From: Chamaelirium japonicum
Lineage: Eukaryota > Streptophyta > Magnoliopsida > Liliales > Melanthiaceae
Reading direction: 5' to 3'
Length of the DNA: 64,000 nt
NCBI GenBank assembly: GCA_947650365.1
Contig: OX393549.1
Span: 24,727,347-24,791,346 of the forward strand
In this document: positions 45,719 through 57,440 of the stretch, piece by piece
Numbering within the stretch: position 1 is the first letter of the stretch
Layout of the letters: each line of letters begins with the position of its first letter
Notes under the pieces: generated by a model
What the model was told of the DNA's origin: nothing
Databases searched by the model: none
What the model saw: only the letters and a program-made list of their open reading frames with translations
Program-made: the position numbers and the translations under genes

Positions 45719-45844
45719 TATATATATATATATATATATATATATATATATATATATATATATATATATATATATATATATATATATATATATATATATA
45801 TATATATATATATATATATATATATATATATATATATATATATA
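45719..45844. repeat. (TA)n microsatellite, left part
   Basis: About 63 TA units ending directly at the copia LTR; continues on its other side at 55676. Confidence 0.98.
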
Positions 45845-47799
45845 TGTTGTAACTCGTGTGTCCTTAGCGTAGATTTTCTGTATTAACATTAATAAATATG
45901 ACTTTGGTTATTGCTTTAATTAGAATACTACTCTGGTATATGATAATACTCATATAATAAAAGGACCCTAGGGAACACAGTAGGCCACTGAGGTGCATGG
46001 AGGATCCATGCTTGGGAGACCCAGTGGACCAGTTCTGTGTAGACCTAGAACTAGTTCACAGCTTTGGTGATGCTGGTCGCTTCACCGAGAATAAGCTGTT
46101 GGCAGGTAGAGGATGTGATGAAGTCTCCACCACGGGAACGTGGGATTCCCATTCACCTGACCAAGCACGATGATCGTGTTGAACAGGAACCAAGATGGTG
46201 CATAGTTCAGTGATTCAGACACTGGTGTAGAAACCGTCTTACTACTATAGATAATACGTCCTTAACCCTGAGGGACCATGTACACTGGGCCAACCAGTTG
46301 TGTGGTGATTTGATGTGCCAACGTGTGTGGACCTTCCATAGTCCAATACCACGGTACGTTGGGTTACCCGGCTGGCGCTTGAGTGACATGTAATCCCTAC
46401 AGGTTATCCAACGTCCAGTGTTGGATGGGTGCGTTTTGATGAGTCAATCTGTCCATACAGTTAACCCAGGCCTGGTGGTTGTCAATATGACTGACGATGT
46501 TCCGGATGCTAGGCATAGCACCGGAAGGTGTGTGGTGTTATAGATGACAAGTCATCAAGCCCTAGTCAGATGATCGATCGGGATCTGACGGTGCTCCCCA
46601 CCGCCCGAGTCGTATCATGGCACCAGTAATATGAGGGACTGAGGATTATCGGAGTATAGTATAGAACATGGTTACGAGGGAGTAACATAAGTTTAGGATC
46701 ACTAGAGTTCAACTCGCGTCGCACTCTGGGTGGCTACGCGGGTTAATCGGATTAGGGCTGATTAACGAAACTTTCGGTGTGTCACCGGAACAGTTAATCA
46801 GGGATCCGGTTGCAGCTAGAGATCCCGAACCCTGAAGGTTCCACCCTGTCATTGCGTATAGGAATTGTTCCCCGACCTAGTTGGATACGTTGGATGCGAA
46901 GTAGCGCGATGGAGCGCAAGCCCGGAGCCTAAGAACCTAATTCACGTGTGTTACGGGCCGTAGGGGTATTTTGGTAAATACTGAAATATAGCTCAGAACA
47001 TATTGAATATGGATCTTAAAATAAGCGGAATAATTCCAGGAGCTCATAGGCACTGACGGAACTCGATTCCGAGTAGCGCACCTCACTCAGTCTCTCTTTC
47101 AGTTTTTCGCTTTTCGTGAAGGGCGTTTTCGTCCGGGCTTCACGATAGACACCCGGAATCCCTAAAAACCGCCCCCCCTATCCCTATCCACCTAAGGGCC
47201 GGCCTTAGCCTCCTTGGAGCCATGGGAGACCGGCCCTATAAAGGAAATAGGGAGGGGAGGGGCCGGCCCACTGGTTATACTCCCTCCCCTCCAAAAATCC
47301 AACGCCTAGTCCCCCTCCTTTGTGGTTTCGGCCAAGGAAAAGAGAGGAAGAAGAAGGGAGAAGGAAGAGGAAGGAAGGAGAAGGAAGAAAGGAGAAAGAG
47401 GAGGAGAAAATCTTGAGGCTCGCCATCGTCTTCGCAACGGATTCTTCCGTCGGCTCGAAATCCCTGCACTCAGAGACGGAATTTTGAGGATTCTTCAATT
47501 CGCAAAGGACAAGGTGATATCCGACAGTTTTCATTGCGATTCAAGTGCGGTTCTTCATCGTTCCGTAATCTCCGGATCATAGATCCATAAGGTATGATGA
47601 ATCTAAACATCTAAGTAGATGCATGCATGTCTTCCGTAGATCGTAGTATGCCTCTAGGGTGTCCGCACATATGCTAAGATCGTAGATTTGCATATAGATT
47701 GTTTTGTATCACGAATTGTAATGAAACATACACCGTATGATCTTCGGATCTTTCTTTTGCTTCCGCTGCGACCCTGATTAGCGGAACCCAATTCCAACA
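45845..47799 (+). repeat. 5' LTR
   Basis: Begins TGTTGTAACTCGTG and ends ATTCCAACA. TATA-like CTATAAAGG at 47236-47244. Related at a distance to the two solo LTRs. Confidence 0.95.
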
Positions 47800-47801
47800 A
47801 T

Positions 47802-47813
47802 TGGTATTAGAGC
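47802..47813 (+). other. Primer-binding site
   Basis: TGGTATTAGAGC, 2 nt after the LTR, one base off the plant initiator tRNA-Met complement TGGTATCAGAGC. Confidence 0.85.
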
Positions 47814-55700: not shown

Positions 55701-56337
55701 GGGGACGGGGAGCCTGGACCTCAGGTGCAGCATGAATGCTGCACCTGAGCCCTGGATGCATGACACGTGTTATTCCTCCCGAAATCCCGGCCGCAAACAA
55801 CCCCTCCGAGACCATTCTGTTCGGGCCAAATCTCAGTCGTCCGATCGATTGAATCGAACGGACGACATTCGGTTCGGCCCCGCTGTTACTGCGGCGGCCA
55901 CAGTAACAGCCCGGGTGAATCCCATCCGTTCGATTCGGTCGATCGGGCGGCTGAAAGTATTCTCGCGATTACTGTAGCCGCTACAGTAATCACGATTTTT
56001 TTTTCAACCGCCCGATTCAATCGATCGGATGGTTGAAATCATTCTCGCGATTACTGTAGCCGCAAGTAATCACGAATTTTTTTTCAACCGCCCGATCGAC
56101 TAAATCGAACGGACGGGATTCACCCGGGCTGTTACTGTGGCCGCCACAGTAACAGCGAGGCCAAACCGAATGTCGTCCGTTCGATTCAATCGATCGGACG
56201 GCTAAGATTTGGCCCGAACGGAATGGTCTCGGAGGGGCTGTTTGTGGCCGATATTTCGGGAGGAATAACACGTGTCATGCATCCAGGGCTCAGGTGCAGC
56301 GTTCACGCTGCACCTGAGGTCCAGGCTCCCCGTCCCC
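55701..56337. mobile_element. Foldback element A, near-full palindrome between TA arrays
   Basis: The first and last about 300 bp are inverted copies: GGGGACGGGGAGCCTGGACC at the left, GGTCCAGGCTCCCCGTCCCC at the right. Smaller palindromes are nested inside: CTCAGGTGCAGC...GCTGCACCTGAG hairpins at 55719-55748 and 56290-56319, GCTGTTACTG...CAGTAACAGC at about 55888-55916, and ATTACTGTAGC/GCTACAGTAAT at 55969-55991. TCGATCGGACGG words recur. GC-rich body against TA flanks. No coding frame of note. Confidence 0.9.
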
Positions 56338-56465
56338 ATATATATATATATATATATATATATATATATATATATATATATATATATATATATATATATA
56401 TATATATATATATATATATATATATATATATATATATATATATATATATATATATATATATATAT
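56338..56465. repeat. (TA)n microsatellite between two foldback elements
   Basis: About 64 TA units. Confidence 0.98.
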
Positions 56466-57345
56466 GAGAATATGGGGTATGAGCTGACAGCCCATTTTTA
56501 TTTTAGGCTGTCAGCTCACAGCTATCCGATCCCACGGATATAACCGTCCGATCTAAAAAAACAAAACACACACACACACCCTCTCTCTCTCTCTCTCTCT
56601 CTCTCTCTCTCTCTCTCTCTCTCTCTCTCTCGTTCGCTGAGAGAGAACCGCCGCCGCCCTCACCCTTCTCCTCCCCCTCCGGCGCCGGTCCAGCCACCTT
56701 CGGCTCACCCCACCGGCAGCTCCCCTCCCCTCCGTCGAGCACCCTCCCGCAGGCAGCCCCGACGTCCCGATCCGGCAGCCCCCTTCTCCTCCCACTCCGG
56801 CACCGGCACCCCCTCGGCTCAGATCCGGCTCCGGCACCCCATCTCCGGCGTCGGCACCCCCTCCGGCGACCCCGTCCCCCTCCAGCAACCCCCCGATCCC
56901 CTCCGGCAGGCCCCCGACCCCCTCCGGTGCTGTGATTGACGCCGGGAGGTCGGGGGTGGAGGTCGGGGGCTGCTGGAGGGTGCTGCCGGAGCTGTGGGCG
57001 TCGCCGAGCAAGTTTCGGGGCTGCCAGAGGGGGACGGTGCTGTCAGAGGGGGACGGTGTCGTCGGGGGGTTGCCGGAGGGGGTCGAAGGGATGCCGGAGG
57101 GGATCGAGGGGCTGCTGGAGGGGATCGGGGGGCTGCCGGAGGTGCTTCGGGCCACAGAGAGAGCTCAAGAGGGAGAGAGATGAGAGAGTTGGGGGGTGGT
57201 TGGCAGCAGTATTACAGCTGTATTACAGCTGTGCTGCAATACAGCTGTAATACAGCAAGATCTGAGCCGTTTACTCAATACGAATCGAACAGTTGACAAT
57301 AACAGCTCAAATGAAAAATAAGCTGGCAGCTCACCTCCCGTTCTC
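56466..57345. mobile_element. Foldback element B with GC-rich minisatellite arms
   Basis: Ends pair imperfectly: GAGAATATGGGGTATGAGCT at the left against the complement of AGCTCACCTCCCGTTCTC at the right, continuing through a short A/T-rich part. Inside, 56640-56930 is a C-rich array (CCCCCTCCGGCACC-type units) and 56940-57180 its G-rich inverted counterpart (GGGGATCGGGGGGCTGCCGG-type units), so the whole could fold. A (CT)n run lies at 56579-56631 and two GCTGTATTACAGCTGT palindromes near 57210-57250. The long frames across it (up to 200 codons) come from the repeats. Confidence 0.75.
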
Positions 57346-57440
57346 TCTCTCTCTCTCTCTCTCTCTCTCTCTCTCTCTCTATATATATATATATATATAT
57401 ATATATATATATATATATATATATATATATATATATATAT
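57346..57440. repeat. (CT)n then (AT)n compound microsatellite
   Basis: CT to about 57380, then AT to 57440, then GAATGAATGAATG. Confidence 0.97.

Follow-up and report, generated by a model that had tools for sequence, protein, structure and literature searches.

The 11.7-kb cluster at positions 45719-57440 is, in our judgment probably, a single plant (TA)n landing site that received two unrelated non-autonomous Mutator-like elements (MULEs), here called elements A and B, together with a copia retrotransposon, and whose simple repeats were later altered by slippage. The cluster lies in a window of 64 kb, the whole stretch of DNA that was analyzed, which is free of any N. Its features, and those directly adjoining it on the right, are as follows.

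45719-45844, no strand: (TA)63 array, 126 bp, perfect; its last five bases, ATATA, are the copia target site duplication (TSD); left remnant of the landing array
45845-47799, plus strand: copia 5′ LTR, 1955 bp, TGTTGTAACT...CCAACA, 96.5% identical to the 3′ LTR
47800-53717, plus strand: copia internal region, with Retrotran_gag_2, Pol_BBD, rve, SH3_retrovirus, and RVT_2 in that order in separate ORFs
53718-55675, plus strand: copia 3′ LTR, 1958 bp, pairing with the 5′ LTR
55676-55700, no strand: (AT)12.5 array, 25 bp, perfect; starts with the copia TSD ATATA and stops at element A; remainder, on the right side, of the array into which copia inserted
55701-56337, no strand: element A, 637-bp foldback, GGGGACGGGGAGCC...GGCTCCCCGTCCCC, with smaller palindromic modules inside
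56338-56465, no strand: (AT)64 array, 128 bp, perfect; separates elements A and B
56466-57345, no strand: element B, 880 bp, inverted but imperfect ends (GAGAA...TTCTC), a (CT)25 tract inside, left half C-rich, right half G-rich
57342-57379, no strand: (TC)19 tract at the 3′ terminus of element B
57380-57440, no strand: (TA)30.5 array, 61 bp, perfect; right border of the cluster
57441-57853, no strand: two tandem copies of a ∼205-bp unit, adjoining the right TA array and about 84-85% identical

The four TA arrays are the only ones of at least 12 units in the 64-kb window, and every one of them lies inside the cluster. Beyond them, a single TA run of at least five units was found (10 bp at 41703). 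By a first-order Markov estimate, ∼1e-10 starts of runs of at least 24 bp would be expected, against the four arrays observed, which rules out chance as their source. Between the arrays stand copia (45845-55675), element A (55701-56337), and element B (56466-57345), in that order and with no element interrupted by another; base 45845 is common to the left TA array and the first T of the copia LTR. The GC content is 0.556 in A and 0.631 in B, compared to 0.473 and 0.487 in the flanks. The left flank (45000-45718) has no further copy in the window at E 0.01 (BLAST), and a search against Rfam gave 0 matches at the gathering score. The original prediction had given the same order of arrays, copia, A, and B and the same borders for A and B, and these agree with the positions listed above. 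It had also described the cluster as a nest, a word that misleads because nothing interrupts A or B. Most simply, the four arrays would represent one TA landing site divided by three insertions.

Low-complexity arrays are common misjoin points, and the cluster might thus consist of unrelated contigs joined through their TA repeats. We regard such an artifact as extremely unlikely, given that the window is without N, that arrays of 25-128 bp should fall within the span of ordinary reads, that ATATA flanks both LTRs of one copia element, and that the two ends of A are flanked by arrays of the same phase.

The copia element carries paired LTRs with TG...CA ends, a 5-bp TSD (ATATA abutting both outer ends, within the TA repeat), and domains in the order gag, integrase, and RT, as is typical of Ty1-copia. 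Directly after the 5′ LTR comes TTGGTATTAGAGC, which we take to be primer-binding-site-like. Pfam matches in copia domain order were obtained for four of the five interior ORFs, and the fifth (53053-53568) gave none at E 0.01. The LTRs differ at 66 of 1955 aligned sites (K2P 0.035); with a substitution rate of 1.3e-8 per site per year, this gives a rough insertion age of ∼1.3 million years. The original prediction had named copia next to the foldback elements as an occupant of the array junctions. On the simplest reading it is no third member of the foldback pattern but a bystander that landed in the TA stretch beside A, on its left. A TA stretch of some length would then already have been present when copia inserted, which could have been a short seed that lengthened afterwards.

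An LTR at 41827-44155, which is partly similar to the copia LTR (69% over 586 bp), has the TSD GTATG at a non-TA site. Copia-type LTRs in this window are therefore not tied to TA arrays, as judged from this one control, and a special attraction of copia to TA was rejected on the same thin basis. The copy at 41827-44155 has TG..CA ends with GTATG on both sides, looks like a solo LTR, and is 90% identical to a copy at 7092-9394. A ∼48-bp direct repeat (7041-7088 and 9393-9440) borders the latter copy and is far above normal TSD length. Among the other LTR-candidate pairs (7.1/41.8 kb and 30/36 kb), there was no clear TSD for the 7.1-kb copy or for the 30/36-kb pair.

Element A begins with GGGGACGGGG and ends with CCCCGTCCCC, and both of its termini (55701 and 56337) directly adjoin a TA array. 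Its arms are identical at 283 of 314 aligned bases, making it a near-complete palindrome, and the single strand forms one long hairpin over its full length (z = −55, with 0 of 20 shuffles as good). Element A had been proposed to be a palindromic element with inverted ends that is delimited by simple-repeat borders, and these results bear this out. The proposal that A and B differ wholly in sequence also held, as BLAST at E 0.01 gave no match between them and no further copy of A in the window. The exact 20-base end of A had 0 matches in viral_contigs and genome_contigs, both of them non-plant collections in which zero is expected.

Element B adjoins TA at its left end (56466), while its right end (57345) adjoins the (TC)n tract and then (TA)n. 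The inverted ends agree at 63 of 82 aligned positions, and the end score for the first 70 bases was 53.3, whereas the highest score among 2000 mononucleotide shuffles was 39.2. The body of B folds better than shuffled sequences (z = −12.9, 0 of 20), but as an imperfect inverted repeat, unlike the palindrome of A. Of the common plan that had been suggested for A and B, the inverted ends and microsatellite flanks apply to both elements; the GC-rich palindromic body applies to A and more weakly to B. No further copy of B was found in the window at E 0.01 (BLAST), a 200-aa ORF within it had no Pfam hit, and its exact 26-base end had 0 matches in viral_contigs, a non-plant collection in which zero is expected. 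The (TC)19 tract is probably a slippage expansion of the terminal TTCTC of B.

Borders, inverted ends, the copia TSD, and the order of the elements can be read directly from the letters, as can the phase of the repeat at each junction. With an odd TSD, the last base of the left flank and the first base of the right flank are identical, and with an even TSD they differ. Slippage in whole 2-bp units does not change this phase; within perfect TA repeats, the TSD length itself is unreadable. On the left and right, respectively, the flanks read A/A at copia and at element A, and T/T at element B when (TC)n is taken into its end. For B, the end was drawn at C 57379, which mirrors its first G; if its end is instead placed at 57345, TC repeat follows directly and only a 1-base match to the left flank is obtained. 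The same base on both flanks implies odd TSDs at copia, at A, and, with (TC)n included, at B. Copia belongs to the 5-bp TSD class, and its A/A phase thus serves as a positive control. For A, and for B if (TC)n is included, TSDs of 1, 3, 5, 7, 9, and 11 bp fit the phase and those of 2, 4, 6, 8, and 10 bp do not, by which TSDs of 2, 8, and 10 bp were rejected. Within the 8- to 11-bp range of MULEs, 9 and 11 bp fit and 8 and 10 bp fail, which for B again needs (TC)n counted as the end. An odd phase at both A and B has a chance of one in four (n = 2) and is no more than suggestive.

The phase shows only that the TSD is odd, and 3 bp also fits, as would be the case if A and B were other elements with terminal inverted repeats (TIRs), e.g., PIF/Harbinger-like elements with a 3-bp TSD. 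Against this, the 2-bp and 8-bp TSD classes, to which Tc1/mariner and hAT elements respectively belong, fail the phase, and G-rich inverted ends within TA arrays resemble published MULE families. We consider membership in such other groups unlikely. Elements A and B are instead most likely microsatellite-targeted non-autonomous MULEs of the SaTar/MuTAnT/Micron/Ac-mMITE type. Each is present as one copy that has TIRs and is bordered on both sides by (TA)n or a related microsatellite, and the inverted ends of both begin with G at the TA borders. The two elements, unrelated at E 0.01, are parted by (AT)64 alone and so form an adjacent, non-interrupting assembly. Pfam detected no MULE transposase among 10 scanned of the 18 window ORFs of at least 140 aa. 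Since neither another copy of A or of B, nor a readable 9-bp TSD outside TA, nor, in the ORFs scanned, a MULE transposase was detected in the 64-kb window, their identity as MULEs rests on resemblance. Under this assignment, A and B would have inserted into the TA microsatellite by cut-and-paste with an odd TSD, probably of 9 bp, through a transposase that may target TA arrays. Copia would have landed in the TA stretch with its 5-bp TSD ATATA, and slippage would later have lengthened the TA stretches and grown (TC)n from the TTCTC end of B; we infer this order and timing of events.

The published families with which A and B can be compared are described in three reports. MuTAnT of Medicago truncatula comprises 218 foldback MULEs with GGGG/CCCC termini, of which 14 lie outside perfect (TA)n and have 9-bp TSDs (PMC4486113). 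MuTAnT resembles A in its foldback form, its GGGG/CCCC termini, and its (TA)n flanks, and its readable 9-bp TSD is odd, as the phase here demands; in size, 90% of MuTAnT elements are 200-300 bp, compared to 637 bp for A (PMC4486113). The 16-base TIR mask of MuTAnT, GGGGTTTGCTAGAACA (PMC4486113), matches A at GGGG but at only 3 of the 12 positions that follow, and A is therefore not of the MuTAnT family.

SaTars, with 15 families in guayule and 5 in rice, occur as microsatellite-linked clusters that are described as having no element interrupting another; a figure legend in the same report refers to a Ty3 element that interrupts an rSaTar4 (PMC5907723). The SaTars of guayule, rice, sorghum, and citrus are like the present cluster in that unrelated TIR elements of ∼0.2-1.9 kb are chained by microsatellites and do not interrupt one another; this likeness is one of description only (PMC5907723). 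Their TSDs vary, being 10 bp for gSaTars and 9 or 10 bp for citrus SaTars, with rice MULEs largely at 9 bp (PMC5907723). The even 10-bp gSaTar TSD is unlike the phase at A and B and does not fit at A, nor at B with (TC)n included.

Element B has descriptive counterparts in Ac-mMITE-1 and -2 of pineapple. Ac-mMITEs have GA...TC termini and (TA)n flanks, 46.1% of the full-length copies are clustered, and their (TC)n tracts, found mostly at the 3′ end, are ascribed to slippage after insertion (PMC8449440). Ac-mMITE-1 and -2 share with B the (TA)n flanks, clusters of adjacent insertions, GA...TC termini, and 3′ (TC)n, and have TSDs of 9/10 bp (PMC8449440). Their sizes are 510-570 and 210-270 bp, compared to 880 bp for B, and the likeness is by description, not by TIR letters (PMC8449440). 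Micron/rSaTar2 of rice and TAFT of maize, again likened by description, are embedded in (TA)n as A and B are (PMC4486113, PMC5907723). The comparison with rice Micron in the original prediction is an apt one. Micron was judged to be a MULE, with TIRs that resemble an autonomous Mu-like element (PMC5907723). Since the same pattern has been published for MuTAnT, SaTar, and Ac-mMITE, with 3′ (TC)n on GA...TC elements among its features, the locus is a clean instance of microsatellite-targeted MULE MITE stacking, a phenomenon known from rice, guayule, Medicago, and pineapple, rather than something new. To this class it contributes one well-preserved cluster and two element sequences.

Whether such elements target TA arrays or create them had been asked for this locus, and the literature poses the same question for a phenomenon that is already well described. 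The alternative to targeting of long arrays alone is that the same elements inserted at a TA run of just 6-8 bp, with repair stuttering and slippage producing the long arrays during insertion or later. We rate this expansion as a serious possibility that falls somewhat short of even. The empty sites of maize TAFT are 6-8 bp and grow to (TA)50 (PMC5907723), and those of MuTAnT, in ecotypes, averaged nine repeats compared to 15 per occupied flank (PMC4486113), both of which agree with expansion. Against it, for 20 of 51 chromosome-1 rSaTar2 sites of japonica, indica has TA microsatellites that vary in length and carry no element (PMC5907723), and three insertions at one site would be easier if a sizeable array was there beforehand. 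The ∼205-bp unit provides a local guide. Copy 1 starts at the end of the long array, and copy 2 starts with ATATATGAATGAA, that is, a short ATATAT (a 3-unit TA seed) before GAATGAA; at E 0.01, the window contains no copy of the unit besides these two. Copy 2 is thus a related site with a 6-bp seed and hints that the right array grew from a short one, but the copies differ by K2P 0.17, so that copy 2 may not reflect how the site looked when the insertion took place.

For SaTars, a model in which circular intermediates recombine has been put forward and termed speculative by its authors, and the flanks of guayule gSaTars targeted to microsatellites are often inconsistent with a 10-bp TSD and plain cut-and-paste (PMC5907723). 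Applied here, homologous recombination of a circular element with microsatellite filler into the TA array would account for mixed flanks, such as those of B, which has TA to its left and TC-TA to its right. However, the TC tract can be explained by slippage of the TTCTC end of B itself, and recombination should predict no fixed phase, yet A and B are both odd (2 of 2 only). We therefore view it as very unlikely at this locus, and retain cut-and-paste insertion into one landing site as the preferred reading. Because slippage keeps the phase, a genome-wide count of flank parity could separate the two models. Such a count would be a cheap test on existing assemblies: cut-and-paste should give a fixed parity, odd for a 9-bp TSD and even for a 10-bp TSD, and recombination no fixed parity.

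A more general idea, which we think doubtful though worth stating, is that these sites are self-renewing landing pads. An insertion would need a TA run and would enlarge it on both sides, thereby offering two new targets to unrelated families and even to retrotransposons, with the fixed flank phase recording the parity of each TSD. If true, flank phase would reveal the transposase class without empty sites.

Several other features of the 64-kb window were noted. Close to the left of the cluster, 45293-45323 is a run of 31 uninterrupted G, and a 33-base C run with 93% matches lies at 750-782. The region 11154-14451 is dense in direct and inverted repeats of ∼130-360 bp, with complementarity reaching 92%; it may be an array of inverted copies or a larger foldback-type element. 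Repeats at 30087-32658 and 36095-37764 are ∼96% identical, with a ∼988-bp duplication within the first copy. ARAGORN called a tRNA-Ile (gat) on the minus strand at 34967-35054; the enclosing stretch 34920-35055 recurs at 58595-58730 with 81% identity, and since Rfam gave nothing at the gathering score, the call is probably false and lies inside a repeat. Finally, an ORF of 312 aa at 21567-22505 matches DUF761, described in Pfam as 'Cotton fibre expressed protein', at its C terminus; it is likely a plant gene and supports a plant origin of the DNA.
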